Source of the DNA: an uncultured bacterium
Lineage (GTDB): Bacteria; Desulfobacterota; Desulfobaccia; Desulfobaccales; 0-14-0-80-60-11
DNA: 64,000 nt
Assembly (NCBI GenBank): GCA_937943575.1
Contig: CALEAV010000028.1
Span: forward strand, 1-64,000
Direction of reading: 5' to 3'
Part shown: positions 10,005 through 63,260 of the stretch, one piece after another
Layout of the letters: each line of letters starts with the position of its first letter
Position numbering within the stretch: the first letter of the stretch is position 1
Notes under the pieces: model-generated
What the model was told of the DNA's origin: nothing
The model's database searches: none
What the model saw: the letters and a program-made list of their open reading frames with translations, nothing else
Translations under genes and position numbers: made by a program

Positions 10005-10190
10005 GCCCGGTGCCCGGGGGTACCATTAGCCCAGTCGGGTATCCTTCGGGATGTAAAAGGGAAGACGGACGAGCCGTCGCGGTCCCGCCGCTGTGACCGG
10101 GGACGAACCCTGCACGAGGCCACTGTCCCTCCTGAGGGGGATGGGAAGGCGCAGGCAGTAGGATGATCCGGAAGCCAGAAGACCTGCCCG
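10005..10190 (+). promoter_or_regulatory. Cobalamin (AdoCbl-type) riboswitch aptamer
   Basis: The conserved blocks of the cobalamin riboswitch family appear in order: GGTGCC (about 10009), AAAAGGGAA (10055-10063), CCCGCCGCTGTGA (10084-10096), CACTGT (10121), GGGAAGGCG (about 10143), GGATGATCCGGAAGCC, and the B12 box GCCAGAAGACCTGCC (10174-10188). It precedes the btuCDF-cbi genes, which it should repress when adenosylcobalamin is plentiful. Confidence 0.95.
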
Positions 10191-10232
10191 ACGGTCTGGA
10201 CCCCCCTCGCGGGTGACGAGGGCCCAGGCAGG

Positions 10233-52800: not shown

Positions 52801-53829
52801 ATGGCCGAGGTCATGCCGGTCACCCGGCGGGTGCGCACCCGACAGGGGGTCATGGCCGCCGCCCTGGCGGTGAGCGTCTGTCTCACCGGGGCGAAATTCT
52901 ATGCCTATCACCTCACCGGCTCCGCCGCCATCCTCTCCGATGCGTTGGAGTCCATCATCAATGTGGCGGCCGCCGCTTTTGCCCTGTTCAGCGTGGTGCT
53001 GGCGGCCAAGAGCCCGGACCCCAGCCACCCCTACGGCCACGGCAAGGTGGAGTACCTGGCCGCCGGCTTTGAAGGCGCCCTCATCATCCTGGCGGCCCTG
53101 GGGATCATCCTCGCCGCCCTGCCCCAGCTCCTCTCCCCCCGGGAGCTCCCCCGCCTGGAGCTGGGGTTGCTTTTCGTGGCCGGGGTGACCCTGGTGAACC
53201 TGGCCATGGGCCTCACCCTCATCCACTTCGGCCGGCGCACCCATTCCCTGGTGCTGGTGGCCGACGGCCAGCATCTCCTCACCGACGTCTACACCAGCGT
53301 CGGGGTGCTGGCGGGGCTGGGGCTTCTGCATCTCACCGGCCGCCTGTGGCTGGACGGGCTGGTGGCGCTGGTGGTGGCCGCCAACATCCTCTATACCGGG
53401 GGCAGGCTGCTGCGCCGCTCTGTGGGCGGCCTGTTGGATGAGTCCGACCCGGCGCTGCTGGAGCGCCTGGTGCAGGTGCTCTCCGAGCACCGCAAGGAGT
53501 TGTGGATCGATGTGCACCGCCTCCGGGCTCGCCGGGCCGGGGATCGGGTGCTGCTGGATTTCCACCTCACCCTGCCCCGGGACCTCCCCTTAGAGGAGGC
53601 CCACCACGAGGTCAAGGAGCTGGAGCGCCTCTTTGCCGAGGCCTTTGACGGCCAGGCGGATCTGCTCATTCACCTGGACCCCTGCACCCAGCCGGTGTGT
53701 CCGGTGTGCGGCCACGACCCCTGCAGCATCCGCACCTATGAGGCCCGGGCCCGGAGCCTGTGGCAGCGCCAGACGGTGACCCAGGAGGACGCCTGCCTGC
53801 CGCCGGACCTGGAGACGCCGAAAAAATAA
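52801..53829 (+). CDS. Cation diffusion facilitator (CDF) transporter
   Basis: The 342-aa inner-membrane metal/proton antiporter has six helices. Its metal-site motifs are ILSDALESIINVAAAAFAL, DPSHPYGHGKVEYLAAGFEG and LVADGQHLLTDVYTSVGVL (DxxxD-type sites). A cytoplasmic ferredoxin-like C-terminal domain includes LWIDVHRLRARRAGDRVLLDFHLTLP. The extra tail CPVCGHDPC could bind metal. It likely exports Zn2+, Fe2+ or a similar ion. ATG 52801 has a strongly purine-rich leader. Confidence 0.93.
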   Translation: MAEVMPVTRRVRTRQGVMAAALAVSVCLTGAKFYAYHLTGSAAILSDALESIINVAAAAFALFSVVLAAKSPDPSHPYGHGKVEYLAAGFEGALIILAALGIILAALPQLLSPRELPRLELGLLFVAGVTLVNLAMGLTLIHFGRRTHSLVLVADGQHLLTDVYTSVGVLAGLGLLHLTGRLWLDGLVALVVAANILYTGGRLLRRSVGGLLDESDPALLERLVQVLSEHRKELWIDVHRLRARRAGDRVLLDFHLTLPRDLPLEEAHHEVKELERLFAEAFDGQADLLIHLDPCTQPVCPVCGHDPCSIRTYEARARSLWQRQTVTQEDACLPPDLETPKK

Positions 53830-53975
53830 GGGCGGGGTGCCCCAGGCGCCTTCCCTGGCCCCCCGGGGGCGATGGCTCCTCTTCCCCGGGCCGCCACGGG
53901 TCTGCCGCCGCAGGATGGCGGACTGCCTTCAATGGGGGCTTGACAGGCACCGGGGAGGTGATTTAAGCTGAACCC

Positions 53976-54044
53976 ATGCAACTGCAGCGGACATGCCTCC
54001 CGGAGACCGGGAACTGGTGCTGGTGGCGCCTGACGAGCCCGTGA
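53976..54044 (+). CDS. trpL: trp operon leader peptide
   Basis: This 22-codon frame starts at ATG 53976 and ends at TGA 54044. The peptide reads MQLQRTCLPETGNWCWWRLT followed by SP. Three of the residues (14, 16 and 17) are Trp, the signature of a tryptophan attenuation leader. It lies directly upstream of overlapping terminator and antiterminator hairpins and 288 nt before trpE. Translation start signals are weak: GGAGG lies 17 nt upstream of the ATG, further than usual. Confidence 0.85.
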   Translation: MQLQRTCLPETGNWCWWRLTSP

Positions 54045-54074
54045 GGTGCACCCAGCGCTTCTGACCGCCGACAG

Positions 54075-54113
54075 CCGGGGCCCCTCACGGGAGGGGGCCC
54101 CGGTTCTGCTTTT
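54075..54113 (+). terminator. trp attenuator terminator with competing antiterminator
   Basis: CCGGGGCCCC (54075-54084) pairs perfectly with GGGGCCCCGG (54094-54103), followed by the T-rich TTCTGCTTTT. The antiterminator alternative pairs CCCGTGAGG (54038-54046, over the leader stop codon) with CCTCACGGG (54083-54091), 9 perfect base pairs that invade the terminator stem and loop. A further 1:2 hairpin can form between 54021-54031 (Trp codons) and 54044-54054. This is the canonical ribosome-mediated attenuation layout. Confidence 0.88.
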
Positions 54114-54119
54114 CAGCGC

Positions 54120-54152
54120 AAGCCGTGGCTCCAGCAGGGTCACGGCTTTTTT
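54120..54152 (+). terminator. Second intrinsic terminator in trp leader
   Basis: AAGCCGTG pairs with CACGGCTT (8 bp, 13-nt loop) and ends in T6 at 54147-54152. It lies only 16 nt after the attenuator stem and about 180 nt before trpE. It may reinforce attenuation or respond to a different signal; no competing pairing was found for it. Confidence 0.75.
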
Positions 54153-54331
54153 GATGGTGGGGGCCGAAGAGGCCTGCCGAAAACAAGAGTCCGCCGGGGG
54201 CGCGTACCTGCACTGGTGAATGGGGTTGCGTCCTGCGGCTCGGCCCGGGGCCTGGGAGACGGACAGGGCCAATGCCTCTGACCTTTTCTCCCTGAAGCTC
54301 GAAAAGGGTAAGAAACACGAGGCAAAACGAG

Positions 54332-55807
54332 ATGGTCGTTCCGGACATCCGAACCTTCCGGCAGCTGTCTGCCCACGGCAATGTCATCCCGGTCTACCGG
54401 GAGATTTTGGGGGACCTGGAGACTCCCGTCTCGGCCTACAAGAAACTGCGGACTGCGGCGCCCTCCTTTCTCCTGGAGAGCGTGGAGGGCGGGGAGAAGT
54501 GGGGCCGCTTCAGTTTCCTGGGCTTTCATCCCCGGCTGACGTTCCGGGTGCAGAAGCATCAGTGCTTCCTCAACCGGGACGGCCGGGAGGACCTCCTGGA
54601 TCCGGGCCTCAGCCCCTTTGAGCATCTGGCCCGGCTCCTCCAAGGGTTCCGGCCGGCGGCGGTGCCGGGCCTGCCCCGTTTCTGGGGGGGGCTGGTGGGG
54701 TTTTTGGGCTATGACATGGTGCGCTACATTGAGCGCCTGCCGGAGCTCACCCCGGAAAGCCCGCTGCCGGAGGCCTGCCTGCTGCTGCCGGAGCATCTCC
54801 TCATCTTTGACAACCTGCGCCAGACCATCAAGGTGGTGGCGCTGGTGTGCCTGGGCGGCGGGGAGCGGCCCGAAGCCCGCTACGAGGCCGCGGTGGCCGC
54901 CATCCATGAGATCATCGCCCGGCTGCGCCAGCCGGTGCCGCCCTCTGAGCCCCCGCCACCGGGCAGGGGGCCGAAGCTTGCCAGCAATGTCACCAAAAAG
55001 CAGTTCGAGGCCATGGTGCACCGGGCCAAGGACTATATCGCCGCCGGGGACGTCATCCAGGTGGTGCTCTCCCAGTGCTTCCAGGCGCCCTTTGAGCATG
55101 ACGCCCTGGATCTTTACCGGGCGCTGCGCTGCATCAACCCTTCACCCTACATGTTTTTCCTGGAGTTCGGCGACCTGAAGCTGGTGGGGGCCTCCCCGGA
55201 GATCCTGGTGCGCCTGGAGGACCGCCGCATCACCTACCGGCCCATCGCCGGCACCCGCCCCCGGGGCAAAACCCCGGAGGAGGACCTGGCCCTGGAGCAG
55301 GACCTGCTGGCCGACCCCAAGGAGCGGGCCGAGCACATCATGCTGGTGGATTTGGGCAGAAACGACGTGGGCCGGGTGGCCGCCATCGGCAGCGTCCGGG
55401 TACCGGAGCTCTTCACTGTGGAGCGCTACTCCCACGTCATGCACCTGGTCTCCCAGGTGGAGGGGGAGCTGGCCGAGGGTGAGGACGGCATCAGCCTGCT
55501 CAAGGCCACCTTCCCGGCGGGCACCGTCACCGGCGCCCCCAAGGTCCGGGCCATGGAGATCATCGAGGAGCTGGAGCCCAGCCGCCGGGGCCCCTATGCC
55601 GGCGCCGTGGGCTATCTCGCCTTCGGGGGCAATCTGGATTTCTGCATCACCATCCGGAGCTTCACCGTGCACCGGGGCCGGGTGTATCTCCAGGTGGGGG
55701 CGGGCATTGTGGCCGATTCCGACCCGGGACGGGAGTTCCAGGAGACGGTGAACAAGGCCATGGCCCTGATGCGGGCCCTGGAGCTGGCGGAAGCGGGCCT
55801 GTGGTGA
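54332..55807 (+). CDS. trpE: Anthranilate synthase component I
   Basis: TrpE (491 aa) converts chorismate to anthranilate with ammonia from TrpG, the first committed step to tryptophan. The N-terminal FLLESVEGGEKWGRFSFLG includes the LLES feedback-inhibition site for Trp. The catalytic half has YIAAGDVIQVVLSQ, RPIAGTRPRGKTPEED, LVDLGRNDVGRVA, YSHVMHLVSQVEGEL and FPAGTVTGAPKVRAMEIIEELE. ATG 54332 has GAGG 9 nt upstream. It is controlled by the attenuator upstream. Confidence 0.97.
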   Translation: MVVPDIRTFRQLSAHGNVIPVYREILGDLETPVSAYKKLRTAAPSFLLESVEGGEKWGRFSFLGFHPRLTFRVQKHQCFLNRDGREDLLDPGLSPFEHLARLLQGFRPAAVPGLPRFWGGLVGFLGYDMVRYIERLPELTPESPLPEACLLLPEHLLIFDNLRQTIKVVALVCLGGGERPEARYEAAVAAIHEIIARLRQPVPPSEPPPPGRGPKLASNVTKKQFEAMVHRAKDYIAAGDVIQVVLSQCFQAPFEHDALDLYRALRCINPSPYMFFLEFGDLKLVGASPEILVRLEDRRITYRPIAGTRPRGKTPEEDLALEQDLLADPKERAEHIMLVDLGRNDVGRVAAIGSVRVPELFTVERYSHVMHLVSQVEGELAEGEDGISLLKATFPAGTVTGAPKVRAMEIIEELEPSRRGPYAGAVGYLAFGGNLDFCITIRSFTVHRGRVYLQVGAGIVADSDPGREFQETVNKAMALMRALELAEAGLW

Positions 55808-55867: not shown

Positions 55868-56440
55868 ATGCTGGTGATGATCGACAATTACGATTCCTTC
55901 ACGTACAATCTGGTGCAGTACTTCGGCCAGCTGGGGGCCGAGGTGCGGGTGTTCCGCAATGATGCCGTTGATCTTCACGGCCTGGAGGCGCTGCCCCTGA
56001 CCCACCTGGTGATCTCCCCGGGCCCGTGTTCCCCGGATGAGGCGGGGATCTCGGTGGCGGCCATCCGGCATTTTGCCGGCCGGGTGCCCATTTTGGGGGT
56101 CTGTCTCGGCCACCAGGCCATCGGCCAGGCCTTCGGCGGCCGGGTGGTGCGGGCTCCCCGGCTGATGCACGGCAAGACCTCCCTCATCTACCATGACGGC
56201 CGGGACCTCTTCCAGGGGCTGCCCAACCCCTTCGAGGCCACCCGCTACCACTCCCTCATCGTGGAGCGGGAGACCCTGCCCGCCTGCCTCATGGTCTCGG
56301 CCCAGACCGCGGTGGGGGAGATCATGGGCCTGCGCCACCGCTCCCACGCCATCTTCGGGGTGCAGTTCCACCCGGAATCCATCCTGACGGAAGAGGGCCT
56401 CAATCTGCTGCGCAACTTCCTCAAGCGCCAGAAAGGCTGA
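55868..56440 (+). CDS. trpG: Anthranilate synthase component II (glutamine amidotransferase)
   Basis: TrpG (190 aa) hydrolyses glutamine to feed ammonia to TrpE. It has [32 protein letters not shown], nucleophile Cys79 in [17 protein letters not shown], and His168/Glu170 in [15 protein letters not shown]. The same subunit could also serve p-aminobenzoate synthase. ATG 55868 follows GGGGGA. There is a 60-nt gap after trpE and 15 nt before korD. Confidence 0.96.
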
Positions 56441-56455
56441 GGCGGGGGGATCGGC

Positions 56456-56767
56456 ATGAGCCCAGACAAGAAGCCCCGCCGGGCCAAAGCCGCACCCAGG
56501 GCCGAGGGTCCGGAGACCCGGGAGACCCCCCAGGGTCCGGCGCCGCCCCGGTTTGTCATCGACATCTACCGGGCCTGGTGCAAGGAGTGCGGCCTGTGCG
56601 CCGAATTCTGCCCCACCGGCTGCCTGAAGCTGGACGAAGCCGGGCGCCCGGTGGTGGCCGACGCCGCCGCCTGTGTGGGCTGCCGCTTCTGCGAGCTGCA
56701 CTGCCCGGACTTCGCCATCAGCGTCCGGGAGTGCGACCAAAAGCCTGCGGCGGAGGATGCCGAATAA
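56456..56767 (+). CDS. korD: 2-oxoacid:ferredoxin oxidoreductase delta subunit (ferredoxin-like)
   Basis: The 103-aa protein has a basic/Pro-rich 30-residue N-terminus and a two-[4Fe-4S] ferredoxin domain with CKECGLCAEFCPTGC and CVGCRFCELHCPDF. It is the electron-carrying subunit of KorDABC, which oxidatively decarboxylates 2-oxoglutarate (or another 2-oxoacid) to the acyl-CoA with reduction of ferredoxin, or runs in reverse. It starts 15 nt after trpG with GGGGGAT upstream, so it can be co-transcribed with trpEG. Confidence 0.93.
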   Translation: MSPDKKPRRAKAAPRAEGPETRETPQGPAPPRFVIDIYRAWCKECGLCAEFCPTGCLKLDEAGRPVVADAAACVGCRFCELHCPDFAISVRECDQKPAAEDAE

Positions 56768-56946
56768 GGCGACAGACCGAAATTATTGCGTCATCCCCCA
56801 AAGTCATTGTGGAGTTTTCCGCATCCCGGTTCAAATGGGAGATAAGGCAAGGGGAAGGTGGCCACCGGAATCAAAAAACCTGGTCAACTGTGGCCTGTGA
56901 GTTCAACCGTGGGACTGTGGCCCCTCACCTTGGCGCCCCTGAGCTG
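56768..56946. other. 179-bp lower-GC spacer between korD and korA
   Basis: This spacer is unusual for a compact kor cluster. Its base composition (56785-56900) is less GC-rich than the genes around it. I find no gene or recognisable element; it may be a remnant of inserted DNA. Confidence 0.4.
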
Positions 56947-58098
56947 ATGTCCGAAAAAGGCAACCCCGGCCGGCCGTTACTTTTGCAGGGCAACGAAGCG
57001 GTGGTGGAAGGCGCCCTGGCGGCGGGCTGCCGGTTTTTTGCCGGCTATCCCATCACCCCGGCCACCGAGATCAGCGAGGTGATGAGCGTGAAGCTCCCGG
57101 CCGCGGGGGGCGTGTTCATCCAGATGGAGGATGAGATCGCCGCCCTGGGGGCGGTCATCGGGGCCTCCCTGGCCGGGGCCAAGGCCATGACCGCCACCAG
57201 CGGCCCGGGCTTCTCTTTGATGCAGGAAAACCTGGGCTTCGCCATCATCGCCGAGGTGCCCTGCGTCATCGTCAACGTCATGCGGGGGGGGCCCTCCACG
57301 GGCCTGCCCACCCACGTCTCCCAGGGGGATGTGCAGCAGGCCCGCTGGGGCACCCACGGCGACCATCCCATCATCGTGCTGGCCCCGGCCACCACCCGGG
57401 ACTGCTTCGAGCTCACCGTTTTGGCCTTCAACCTGGCGGAGAAATTCCGGATCCCGGTGATCCTGCTGTCCGACGAGGTGGTGGCCCACACCCGGGAGAA
57501 GGTCTGTCTGCCGCACCCCAGCGAAATCGAGGTGGTGGAGCGCCTCAAGCCCACCATGCCGCCGGAGTGGTACATCCCCTACGAGGACACCCCCCGGGGG
57601 GTGCCCCCCATGGCCAGCTTCGGGGACGGCTACCGCTACCACGTCACCGGGCTCATCCACGATGTGCGGGGCTTTCCCACCGAGCGGCCGGATGAGATCG
57701 TGCCCTTCCTGAACCGGCTCTTCCGCAAGATCCGCCAGCACTTCCACGAGATCTGCCGGGTGGAGGAGTTCCTCACCGAGGACGCCGAGCTCCTGGTGGT
57801 GGCCTACGGCAGCGTGGCCCGCTCCGCCCGGCGGGCGGTCATCGACGCCCGGGCCCGGGGAGTCAGGGCGGGGCTGGTGCGCCTCATCACCCTGTGGCCC
57901 TTCCCCCGGCGGCTGCTGGAGCCGCATCTTGGCCGGGTACGGACGGTGCTGGTGCCGGAACTGAACATGGGCCAGATGGCCCGGGAGGTGAAGCGCATCA
58001 ACCGGGGCCTCACCCGGGTGGAGACCTTAAACCGCATCGACGGGAGGCTGATCCCGCCGGAGCAGGTTCTGGACCTTCTGTTAAAATTACACCGGTGA
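56947..58098 (+). CDS. korA: 2-oxoacid:ferredoxin oxidoreductase alpha subunit
   Basis: The 383-aa protein shows LLLQGNEAVVEGALAAGCRFFAGYPITPATEI (domain I), FIQMEDEIAALGAVIGASLAGAKAMTATSGPGFSLMQE, VNVMRGGPSTGLPT and LLSDEVVAH, ending with VPELNMGQMAREV. It carries part of the thiamine-diphosphate site together with KorB. 2-Oxoglutarate is the likeliest substrate from the four-subunit KorDABC pattern, but branched 2-oxoacids cannot be excluded. ATG 56947 is preceded by no clear ribosome-binding site. korB, normally next, is 657 bp away across a decayed gene. Confidence 0.94.
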   Translation: MSEKGNPGRPLLLQGNEAVVEGALAAGCRFFAGYPITPATEISEVMSVKLPAAGGVFIQMEDEIAALGAVIGASLAGAKAMTATSGPGFSLMQENLGFAIIAEVPCVIVNVMRGGPSTGLPTHVSQGDVQQARWGTHGDHPIIVLAPATTRDCFELTVLAFNLAEKFRIPVILLSDEVVAHTREKVCLPHPSEIEVVERLKPTMPPEWYIPYEDTPRGVPPMASFGDGYRYHVTGLIHDVRGFPTERPDEIVPFLNRLFRKIRQHFHEICRVEEFLTEDAELLVVAYGSVARSARRAVIDARARGVRAGLVRLITLWPFPRRLLEPHLGRVRTVLVPELNMGQMAREVKRINRGLTRVETLNRIDGRLIPPEQVLDLLLKLHR

Positions 58099-58101
58099 AT
58101 T

Positions 58102-58646
58102 ATGGAGGCGGGCGCCGGCGGCAGTTGGTTTTATGAAATCTTCACATCAATTTTCAGTGGATTTGTTGGAGCAGCATTTGCTCTTTATCTGCCTCGGGTC
58201 AAACGCTTGTTTTGGGGGCCTGAGCTGAGGCTTTCCTTTGGCAAACATATTGACGGTTGCGTTGCCAGAACTTCGGTTTCATCTTGTGTTGGCATTACTG
58301 AAGGGTATTATATCATAATTAAAGTAGAAAATATTTAACCGATCATGGCAAAAGAGTTCAGGGCATTTTTGGTGAATATTGAAAAAAATTTAAAAATGGC
58401 TTATTTCAACCCACTATTTATCAGGGCAGTATTCAGCGCCCATGGTCCTGCAGAATTAACAGTTATGAAGCCATTGACCTCCCATATGGAATAAGCCAAC
58501 TTGTTGATATATTTTCTACAATTAAGGAAAATGATAAAATAATAATACCAATAATAAAAATGCCTTTCAGGCACGAAAAATTAATTGGTGAACCTGGGAC
58601 ATTCCCGAAGCTTTCCCAGAAAAAGCCGAAACATGAGAGCTGGTAG
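58102..58646 (+). pseudogene. Decayed AT-rich membrane-anchored protein gene inside kor cluster
   Basis: The frame begins at ATG 58102 with a membrane helix (FYEIFTSIFSGFVGAAFALYL) and LRLSFGKHIDGC. It then hits an in-frame TAA at 58336 within YIIIKVENI*. The same frame continues with AKEFRAFLVNIEK. After a one-base loss in the A-run near 58382-58396 the frame that ends at TAG 58646 continues sensibly: NGLFQPTIYQGSIQRPWSCR, NSYEAIDLPYGISQLVDIFS, TIKENDKIIIPIIKMPFRHE. One protein is thus split by one nonsense and one frameshift. Codon use and AT content differ sharply from korA and korB, which indicates transfer. The family is unnamed to me. Confidence 0.8.
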
Positions 58647-58755
58647 AGAAAATTGAAGGTTTTTGTGCTGTGTTAAGCTGTTGGCAAAGAAATGAGTCCT
58701 GTCGGGCAGTGTCCGTAACCGGAGGCTGACCGCTGCCCGCTGTGAGCTCGCAGCC

Positions 58756-59595
58756 ATGCCCGAAATCACCAAACTTATCCACAAATACCTGCGGCACGAA
58801 AAGAAGTTCCCCCACGTCTGGTGCCCGGGCTGCGGCAACGGCATCGTCCTGGGGGCGCTGATCCGGGCCGTTGACCGCACCGGGTTCACCAAAGACGACA
58901 TCGTGCTGGTCAGCGGCATCGGCTGCGCCGGCCGCATGAGCGTGTATGTGGATTTCAACACCCTGCACACCACCCACGGCCGGGCCCTCACCTTCGCCAC
59001 CGGGGTGAAGCTGGCCAACCCCCGCCTCCAGGTCATCGTGGTCATGGGCGACGGCGACGCCACCGCCATCGGCGGCAACCACTTCATCCACGCCGCCCGG
59101 CGCAACCTCAACCTCACCGCCCTCATCATCAACAACCAGATCTACGGCATGACCGGCGGGCAGTATTCCCCCACCACCCCGATGGGCGCCAAGACCACCA
59201 CCAGCTTGTATGGCCACCTGGAGCAGCCCTTCGCCATCGCCGAGCTGGCCGTGGCCGCCGGCGCCGCCTGGGTGGGCCGCAGCACCGTCTACCACGCCAG
59301 CCACCTGGATCAGCTCATCGAAGCCGCCATCCTCAAAAAAGGCTTCGCGGTGGTGGAGGTCATCAGCCACTGCCACACCCAGTTCGGCCGCAGAAACAGG
59401 ATGGGCGGCCCGGCGGAGATGATGCGCTGGCAGAAGGAGGTGGCCGTCCGGGTGGAGAAGGCCCGCACCATGTCCCCCGAGGAGCTGCGCGGCAAGATCA
59501 CCATCGGCATCCTGGCCGACCGGGACCTGCCCAGCTACACCCGGGAATACAAAAAAATCCAACAAGCCGCCCGGGCCGCGATGGAGGAAGGCTGA
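58756..59595 (+). CDS. korB: 2-oxoacid:ferredoxin oxidoreductase beta subunit
   Basis: The 279-aa TPP-binding subunit shows FPHVWCPGCGNGIVLGALIRAV, VSGIGCAGRMSVYVDFNTLHTTHGRA, VIVVMGDGDATAIGGNHFIHAARRN (TPP/Mg motif), IINNQIYGMTGGQYSPTTP and CHTQFGRRN. It works with KorA, C and D. ATG 58756 has no obvious ribosome-binding site. A 7-bp inverted repeat (CGGGCAG/CTGCCCG, from about 58703 to 58740) lies just upstream, after the broken gene. Confidence 0.95.
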   Translation: MPEITKLIHKYLRHEKKFPHVWCPGCGNGIVLGALIRAVDRTGFTKDDIVLVSGIGCAGRMSVYVDFNTLHTTHGRALTFATGVKLANPRLQVIVVMGDGDATAIGGNHFIHAARRNLNLTALIINNQIYGMTGGQYSPTTPMGAKTTTSLYGHLEQPFAIAELAVAAGAAWVGRSTVYHASHLDQLIEAAILKKGFAVVEVISHCHTQFGRRNRMGGPAEMMRWQKEVAVRVEKARTMSPEELRGKITIGILADRDLPSYTREYKKIQQAARAAMEEG

Positions 59596-59603
59596 GGAGC
59601 TTT

Positions 59604-59661
59604 GGAGGGAGGGCCAGGGAAGGCAGTTCCCTGCCCTGCCCCCAAGCCCCCCTCCCAACCC
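59604..59661 (+). repeat. G4-element copy D
   Basis: GGGCCAGGGAAGGCAGTTCC with CTGCCC forms a 10-bp hairpin with one bulge, the clearest of all copies, followed by CCCCC/CCCCCC/CCC runs. It lies 8 nt after korB. The minus strand is quadruplex-prone (GGGTTGGGAGGGGGG-CTT-GGGGG). Confidence 0.7.
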
Positions 59662-59666
59662 TGTCC

Positions 59667-59728
59667 GGGTTTGGGGGTGGGGGCGAAGGGGGAGGGGGTA
59701 AGGGCCCACGGCACTCAGCCCCCTCCCC
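59667..59728 (-). repeat. G4-element copy E (inverted relative to D)
   Basis: The plus strand carries GGGTTTGGGGGTGGGGGC then GGGGGAGGGGG and GGGCCCACGGCACTCAGCCC, the reverse complement of the element. With copy D it forms a large imperfect inverted repeat filling the korB-korC gap. Confidence 0.6.
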
Positions 59729-59750
59729 CAAGAAACCCCGAGGAGCACCG

Positions 59751-60338
59751 ATGGCGGAGAGGCTGGAGATCAGGCTGGCGGGGTCGGGAGGGCAGGGAGT
59801 GATCCTGGCGGGGGTGGTGCTGGCGGAGGCGGCGGGGATTCATGAGGGGCGTGAGGTGGCGCAGACGCAGAGCTATGGGCCGGAGGCCCGGGGCGGGGCC
59901 GCCCGGGCGGAGGTGGTGATCAGTGACGGGGAGATTGATTATCCCAAGGCCATGCAGCCGGACATCCTGCTGTGCCTGAGTCAGCGGGCCTGTGATGCGT
60001 ACGTGTTTGACCTCAAGCCCGACGGGACCATCCTGGTGGATGCGGAGCTGGTGCAGCATCTGCCCACCACCCGGGCGGTGGCCCTGCCCTTTGCCCGCCT
60101 GGCCCGGGAACAGGTGGGGGAGGTGCTGATGGCCAACATGGTGGCCCTGGGGGCGCTGGCGGCACTGACGGGGGTGGTGTCCCTTAAAAGCCTGGAGGCG
60201 GCGGTGCAGACCCGGGTGCCTCAGGGGCACCGGAAGAAGGCTCTCGCGGCCCTGGAGGTGGGAGCCCTGGCGGCCCGGGAGCATCTGGCGCAGAAAGAGA
60301 CCTACCGACCGACGGAGAGCGATGCAGATCCTCTTTGA
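59751..60338 (+). CDS. korC: 2-oxoacid:ferredoxin oxidoreductase gamma subunit
   Basis: The 195-aa subunit shows LEIRLAGSGGQGVILAGVVLAEAAG, VAQTQSYGPEARGGAARAEVVIS and ILLCLSQRACDAYV, the KorC/gamma pattern, with a conserved MVALGALAALTGVVSL. ATG 59751 has GAGGAG 6 nt upstream. Its last 17 nt overlap the antiporter gene. Confidence 0.95.
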   Translation: MAERLEIRLAGSGGQGVILAGVVLAEAAGIHEGREVAQTQSYGPEARGGAARAEVVISDGEIDYPKAMQPDILLCLSQRACDAYVFDLKPDGTILVDAELVQHLPTTRAVALPFARLAREQVGEVLMANMVALGALAALTGVVSLKSLEAAVQTRVPQGHRKKALAALEVGALAAREHLAQKETYRPTESDADPL

Positions 60339-62348: not shown

Positions 62349-63260
62349 ATGCATCAGTCAGGAAAAGCGACCCATCTGGCTTTTGGAGATGAATCCCACT
62401 GGAGTCAAGGAAGATATCGGGCCATCGGCTTAGTGACTCTTAGAATAGAACATTATCATGATTTAAGGGAGAAGTTAAAAAATATATTAAAGGAATCAGA
62501 AGTTAAAGAATTTAAATGGAATAATCTGAGAAGTGCAAGGGAGAAATTTGCAGCTTTTAAGATAATTGATTTTAGTATAGAATCAGCATTAAATAAATTA
62601 ATAAGATTTGATATTCTCGCCTGGGATAATGAGGACAGCCGTCATAAAATAAAAAGGCGTGATGACGTGGCTAATCTGTAGCGTATGTACTATAAATTGT
62701 TTTTAAATGTAATGAAAGAACGCTGGCCTGACGGGTGTATCTGGCGCTTGCATCCTGATGAACATACTGCAATTAATTGGAAGGAAATTAAAAATTATCT
62801 TAAGCATAAAGAGACGGAGATTGATTTTAAGAGAAACCTTCAGACAGACCGTGATTTTAATATTATTATTAGAAAGAAATTCAATATCGTCTCAATCGCT
62901 CCGGTGAACTCTTATGAAGAGCCTCTCATTCAACTGTCAGATCTCTTTTCCGGGATGGCCGTCTTTTCAAGAACGAAGTTTGATAATTACCTAAATTGGG
63001 ACAGTAAAAAATCAGGTCAGCTTGGGCTATATGATAACTCACCAGAATATCAGCACAGCCAGGCTGACATCGTTAGATTCGAAGTTTTAGACGATTTTAA
63101 TGAAAAATGTAAAAAACATAATTTATATGTAAGTCTTCGGAAGAAAAATGGACTGTATTGTTTTAAGCCTGATAAACCATTTAATTTTTGGCTTTATGAG
63201 CCACAGCACCCCGCGGACAAAGCGCCGGTTAAACAAGGCAATAAAAACCTGAGGCGGTAA
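62349..63260 (+). pseudogene. DUF3800-type gene interrupted by an in-frame amber codon
   Basis: Two pieces in the same frame, 62349-62681 and 62685-63260, are separated only by TAG (62679) and one codon. Piece 1 has HLAFGDESHWSQGRYRAIG and IRFDILAWDNEDSRHKIK. Piece 2 has MYYKLFLNVMKERWPDGCIW, SIAPVNSYEEPLIQLSDLFS and GMAVFSR. Joined, they give a DUF3800-like, RNase H-fold-type protein of about 300 aa with the acidic D-E and late QLSDL motifs; a single CAG-to-TAG change explains the break. AT content is far above its neighbours. DUF3800 genes are often linked to mobile or defence DNA. The SD of trpD (GAGG) lies in its last codons. Confidence 0.8.

Follow-up and report, generated by a model that had tools for sequence, protein, structure and literature searches.

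The trp attenuator of Escherichia coli and Salmonella (RF00513) lies upstream of trpE and combines clustered Trp codons (WW) in a leader peptide with a 1:2 protector hairpin, a 2:3 antiterminator over the stop codon, and a 3:4 terminator. In the his attenuator of the same bacteria, six alternately pairing segments, lettered A to F, form a chain in a leader with His codons, and the terminator role is ascribed to the last hairpin alone. An extra hairpin in that leader is thought to lower basal read-through (PMC1183508). The trpL leader of Sinorhizobium meliloti (rnTrpL/peTrpL) encodes a Trp leader peptide, controls trpE(G) by attenuation, and is drawn with one terminator (PMC7298713). Outside the proteobacteria, the text searched of a source on Actinobacteria (Corynebacterium and Streptomyces) describes classical Trp-codon leader attenuators, and that same text contains no tandem terminator (PMC1262725). 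Tandem terminators do occur in an attenuating leader in some Gammaproteobacteria, i.e., the rimP-leader, in which one of them has a potential antiterminator; however, this antiterminator belongs to an extra upstream terminator, and the element is not described as a ribosome-sensed Trp leader (PMC2965389). In the literature searched, which had subscription papers outside its scope, we found neither a tandem-terminator leader-peptide attenuator nor a deltaproteobacterial trp attenuator, and the rimP-leader was the nearest tandem case.

Here, we analyzed a 64,000-nucleotide stretch of DNA (the window) from an uncultured bacterium of the order Desulfobaccales, phylum Desulfobacterota, and compared its trpE locus with a set of 25 trpE loci of this order. 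The sequence makes it likely that the region upstream of trpE is a ribosome-mediated trp attenuator in which one sensing event sets two terminators, T1 and T2. The relevant features are as follows.

53940-53967, + strand: predicted leader promoter (−35 TTGACA at 53940-53945, −10 TTTAAG at 53962-53967, 16-nt spacer)
53976-54044, + strand: leader peptide gene trpL, 22 aa, MQLQRTCLPETGNWCWWRLTSP followed by a stop codon (ORF translation; W-C/L-W-W motif in nearly all 25 relatives)
54015-54031, + strand: segment 1, carries the Trp control codons (54015-54026) and supplies the 5' arm of the 1:2 protector hairpin (89.7% of cells paired, weak covariation)
54038-54046, + strand: segment 2, antiterminator arm that spans the stop codon and is also part of the 1:2 hairpin, which extends to 54059 (2:3 covariation)
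54073-54113, + strand: terminator T1 (3:4), whose U-rich tail is interrupted (terminator scan)
54074-54091, + strand: segment 3, pairs with segment 2 through 54083-54091 and supplies the 5' arm of T1 (54074-54086) (folding, 2:3 covariation)
54093-54105, + strand: segment 4, supplies the 3' arm of T1 and can pair with segment 5 (folding, duplex energies)
54120-54152, + strand: terminator T2 (5:6) with a TTTTTT tail (terminator scan; in 25/25 relatives)
54120-54132, + strand: segment 5, supplies the 5' arm of T2 and can pair with segment 4 (4:5 duplex of −22.9 kcal/mol)
54137-54148, + strand: segment 6, 3' arm of T2 (two-sided changes in 5:6)
54332-55807, + strand: trpE, the regulated gene, encoding anthranilate synthase component I (TIGR00564, 551.7 bits, cutoff 517.7)
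55868-56440, + strand: trpG/pabA, glutamine amidotransferase of anthranilate/aminodeoxychorismate synthase (TIGR00566, 269.5 bits, cutoff 121.05)

The original prediction had placed at this locus a 22-aa leader peptide with Trp-Cys-Trp-Trp, a 10-bp T1 stem competing with a 9-bp antiterminator, a 1:2 pairing of the Trp-codon region, and an extra terminator 16 nt past T1, and we recovered all of these elements at the coordinates it gave. Specifically, the Trp-Cys-Trp-Trp codons of the leader ORF (peptide motif NWCWW) lie upstream of a cognate biosynthesis gene that scores above the TIGR00564 cutoff. The antiterminator is a perfect 9-bp pairing of 54038-54046 with 54083-54091, and the T1 stem is a perfect 10-bp pairing of 54075-54084 with 54094-54103 that folds as 13 pairs within 54073-54105; the 2:3 and 3:4 pairings are mutually exclusive. 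The 1:2 hairpin folds at −30.1 kcal/mol and buries segment 2 when the leader is untranslated. The T2 hairpin (54120-54148) is followed by its U-tract. Between 53500 and 54600, we identified five terminator-like sites compared to 1.0 ± 1.1 in shuffled sequences, and T1 and T2 have the longest stems among the five. Because the U-tract of T1 is interrupted (TTCTGCTTTTC) in the window's genus while that of T2 is clean, T2 may carry much of the termination in the window's genome.

The locus thus has all the elements listed above for the E. coli/Salmonella trp attenuator and differs in having WCWW rather than WW, in lacking TrpR in 31 relatives, and in having a second terminator, 5:6, that we propose is coupled to the first through a 4:5 pairing. 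The resulting chain of 1:2, 2:3, 3:4, 4:5, and 5:6 pairings among six segments resembles that of the his attenuator; in contrast to the latter, the control codons are Trp codons and both 3:4 and 5:6 have U-tracts. Two terminators also distinguish the locus from the S. meliloti leader. In this comparison, the attenuator is conserved and otherwise ordinary, with an unusual second terminator that is probably functional.

The same parts, i.e., a Trp leader, the 2:3 antiterminator, T1, and T2, are present in 25/25 Desulfobaccales trpE loci, and the attenuator is therefore not a chance arrangement. L089 (genome G007) comes from the window's own family, and its TrpE is 73% identical. The original prediction of a classical ribosome-mediated trp attenuator, for which relatives should show compensatory changes and conserved Trp codons, is borne out by these homologous leaders, which keep both the Trp codons and the alternative pairing. 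Trp codons are clustered in all 25: most have WCWW, L094 and L097 have WLWW, and L085 and L087 have WCWR. Outside this cluster, the leader peptides vary in length and sequence. The antiterminator covaries: four 2:3 pairs and 12 cells have two-sided changes, with 96.7% of cells paired and 0/500 shuffles reaching this level; segment 2 is CCGTGAGG-type, and three of the four pairs change from CG to UA and the fourth from GC to AU. For 5:6, three pairs and 12 cells have two-sided changes; here, shuffles matched the covariation score in 0/500 and the number of two-sided cells in 3/500. Covariation in T1 is weak, because this hairpin is nearly invariant and shifts register in a second family. In 25/25 loci, the last Trp codon and segment 2 are separated by 10-13 nt, a spacing that fits a ribosome footprint.

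The middle Cys codon of the cluster (54018-54020) is kept in 23/25 loci and replaced by Leu in L094 and L097, while in other families this position is Trp, Arg, or Tyr; based on these replacements, we rejected co-sensing of Cys as the main reading of WCWW. In one locus (L084), there is no ATG, GTG, or TTG near the promoter in the frame of the Trp codons, which points to an ATT start, a frameshift, or a sequence error. Short GC-rich repeats (CGCCGATGAACGCCGATG...) lie just after T2 in L086, L091, L094, L096, and L105, which belong to several genera, and an interspersed repeat may mark that junction.

Next to this conserved leader, other Trp regulators were not detected: the Trp repressor TrpR (PF01371) and TRAP (PF02081) were each found in 0/31 genomes of the window's relatives, with positive E. 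coli and B. subtilis controls, respectively. Attenuation may therefore be the main Trp control in these relatives, which would favor a switch with low leakage. The Rfam Trp_leader model (RF00513) gave a match above the gathering score in 0/40 relatives, with a positive E. coli control, and neither it nor other relevant Rfam families matched the window at gathering or relaxed thresholds; likewise, no T-box match was obtained upstream of trpE at gathering scores. The only window matches at gathering scores are a cobalamin riboswitch (RF00174, 104 bits, 10020-10205, + strand) and a tRNA (5-78, − strand). Elsewhere in the window, two adjoining ORFs at 62349-63260 resemble one gene split by a stop codon or a frameshift. 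By the features that can be tested, i.e., the leader ORF, the cognate gene, the terminators, and the covarying antiterminator, the locus is predicted to be a ribosome-mediated attenuator, and we regard trp attenuation here as close to certain.

A second terminator that acted as a passive extra stop would cancel the T1 decision by stopping transcription 16 nt later, and T2 should therefore not be passive. The original prediction overlooked both the conservation of T2 and the complementarity of its 5' arm to the 3' arm of T1. Because of this complementarity, a single switch probably governs both T1 and T2, and neither would simply sit unused downstream of its partner. We propose that, when Trp-tRNA is scarce, the ribosome would halt on the Trp codons and 2:3 would pair, thereby blocking T1; the free segment 4 would then capture segment 5 as it emerges, so that T2 would form too late and trpE would be transcribed. 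Otherwise, T1 and T2 would both form, with segment 4 occupied and polymerases that escape T1 meeting T2. If the leader is not translated, 1:2 would form, followed by both terminators. T2 would thus be a conditional back-up that lowers leakage in the presence of Trp and does not block induction. We consider it reasonably likely that T2 is under coupled control through 4:5.

Energies and folding are consistent with this proposal. Across the 25 relatives, the 4:5 duplex ranges from −17 to −25 kcal/mol with a mean of −21.0 kcal/mol compared to −20.7 kcal/mol for T2, while the 3:5, 2:5, 2:6, and 4:6 duplexes average only −10.7 to −13.2 kcal/mol. When 2:3 is held in constrained folding, 4:5 forms in 25/25 once segment 5 has emerged; when 3:4 is held instead, 4:5 is absent in 19/25 and has 5-7 pairs in 6/25. 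With a ribosome on the Trp codons, no forced pairs, and segment 5 just out, the combination of 2:3 and 4:5 is the minimum in 23/25. In full-length folds with 2:3 held, 17/25 have 5:6 as their energy minimum, and skipping of T2 must therefore be kinetic; the outcome here would depend on timing, as it does in classical attenuators. That T2 is the minimum in these 17 leaders and is a complete intrinsic terminator on its own also fits a different reading, which we find unlikely, namely, that the single decision is made at T1 and that T2 is an independent, unswitched fail-safe of partial efficiency that trims transcription by a constant factor. A strong T2 of this kind would undo much of what is decided at T1.

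The coupled and unswitched readings differ in what they say about 4:5. Among 56 leaders with tandem terminators, cognate 4:5 pairing (−20.0) exceeds that of swapped partners (−16.6 ± 0.42; z = −8.1, 0/5000) in permutations that are not tree-aware and in which the T1/T2 boundaries of leaders from outside Desulfobaccales were placed manually. In the tandem leaders outside Desulfobaccales, 4:5 also exceeds the 3:6 control (z = −5.5 versus −1.1), as it does there with arms stripped of A/U tails (z = −4.2 versus −1.4). Both comparisons argue against an unswitched T2. In the whole set without tails, 4:5 (z = −5.7) is accompanied by a significant 3:6 control (z = −5.1), and the resemblance of T1 and T2 therefore explains part of the 4:5 signal. 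This resemblance perhaps stems from an old duplication, and a duplication of T1 could also account for the shared arm motif under the unswitched reading. With other terminators as control partners, a leader's own 4:5 ranks high and is not always extreme (z = −1.0 to −3.7). Within Desulfobaccales, 4:5 is too invariant for significant covariation (permutations, 265/5000). Strong pairing of the T1 3' arm with the T2 5' arm is present in every tandem leader checked, and concerted changes of all four arms in L146, L166, and L098 favor 4:5; a mismatch in the 4:5 core in L145 and L150 counts against it, as does the presence of the GCCGTGG motif in single-terminator leaders too. Among 101 other terminators, only 1 is followed by a second terminator within 70 nt. 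Together, these sequence comparisons support the 4:5 link but do not prove it.

The 5' end of the leader RNA bears on the remaining alternatives. A TTGAC-type −35 hexamer (TTGACA in most) is present at the matching place in 25/25 relatives with a −10-like hexamer 16-18 nt downstream, although a stricter promoter scan of the window region missed this promoter. Because 8 nt separate the predicted −10 hexamer from the trpL start codon in the window, this mRNA probably has little or no untranslated leader and may begin at the AUG, the predicted start site; in about half of the 25 relatives, this distance is 6-9 nt, and in several it is exactly 6 nt. The Shine-Dalgarno-like GGAGGTGAT upstream of trpL would then fall in the promoter and not in the RNA. 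The predicted start matches S. meliloti, in which the 5' end of the trpL transcript is the trpL ATG and rnTrpL acts in trans (PMC7298713). This likeness and the short −10-to-ATG distances would suit a T2 that mainly shapes a stable attenuated RNA acting in trans like rnTrpL; however, any attenuator yields a terminated RNA as a by-product, and we consider this role very improbable. Least probable of all is that trpE has its own promoter downstream of T2, with the terminators serving just to shield it from the gene upstream, whose end is at 53829. About 180 nt (54153-54331) separate T2 from trpE, and the distance from leader stop to trpE varies from about 130 to 530 nt across relatives; however, the interval is not conserved even within the genus and a promoter scan found no promoter-like site in it, whereas the promoter, Trp codons, and antiterminator of the leader are all conserved. 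Downstream of trpE-trpG, a ferredoxin-like gene and apparent 2-oxoacid:ferredoxin oxidoreductase subunit genes follow (56456-60338), and from the latter to the window end we recognized no further trp genes.

Returning to the attenuator with two coupled terminators, we assessed its distribution using a covariance model, R1, built from the 25 Desulfobaccales leaders and by inspecting trpE upstream regions across the phylum. This approach identified about 30 further tandem-terminator leaders elsewhere in Desulfobacterota; a covariance model search of the window's own genome gave no second strong R1-like element. When 80 diverse trpE upstream regions were read by eye, ~29 had a Trp-cluster leader with a terminator, of which ~17 were tandem. 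Trp-codon leaders precede trpE in many Desulfobacterota families and, based on the searched text of PMC1262725, are published in Actinobacteria; the view in the original prediction that such an attenuator is remarkable outside the alpha- and gammaproteobacteria, in a deltaproteobacterial anaerobe, is therefore not supported.

Tandem Trp leaders also lie upstream of aroF (L141 and L147), trpD (L234), and a TrpB-like gene (L150, L233, and L239), and Trp-rich leaders precede iorA, for indolepyruvate ferredoxin oxidoreductase alpha, in two genomes, at L240 (WWCWWW) and L246 (WWRWWW; iorA by NCBIfam); the names of these targets rest on partial matches or translated sequence. In L249, a Val-rich leader with tandem terminators precedes an acetolactate synthase gene, with a similar one in L248, and in L252 a Tyr-rich leader (GFYYYSS) with tandem terminators precedes a 2-amino-3,7-dideoxy-D-threo-hept-6-ulosonate synthase gene. 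The layout with two terminators may therefore serve other amino acids as well. A crude scan of Desulfobaccales found no tandem Val/Ile leaders before ilvB.

On balance, we lean toward a phylum-wide attenuator with a double check, in which one ribosome-sensing event would set two serial terminators through a six-segment chain, cutting leakage roughly by the product of the two termination efficiencies while preserving induction, possibly replacing the missing repressor and being reused for other amino-acid genes. The R1 model detects such leaders, which the Rfam Trp_leader model misses. The findings carry textbook trp attenuation into a large anaerobic phylum and suggest, in a clear and testable form, how induction of a gene that lies behind two strong terminators is possible. 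Should 4:5 act as proposed, it would be a simple means of giving a ribosome-sensed switch a wider dynamic range with no need for a repressor.
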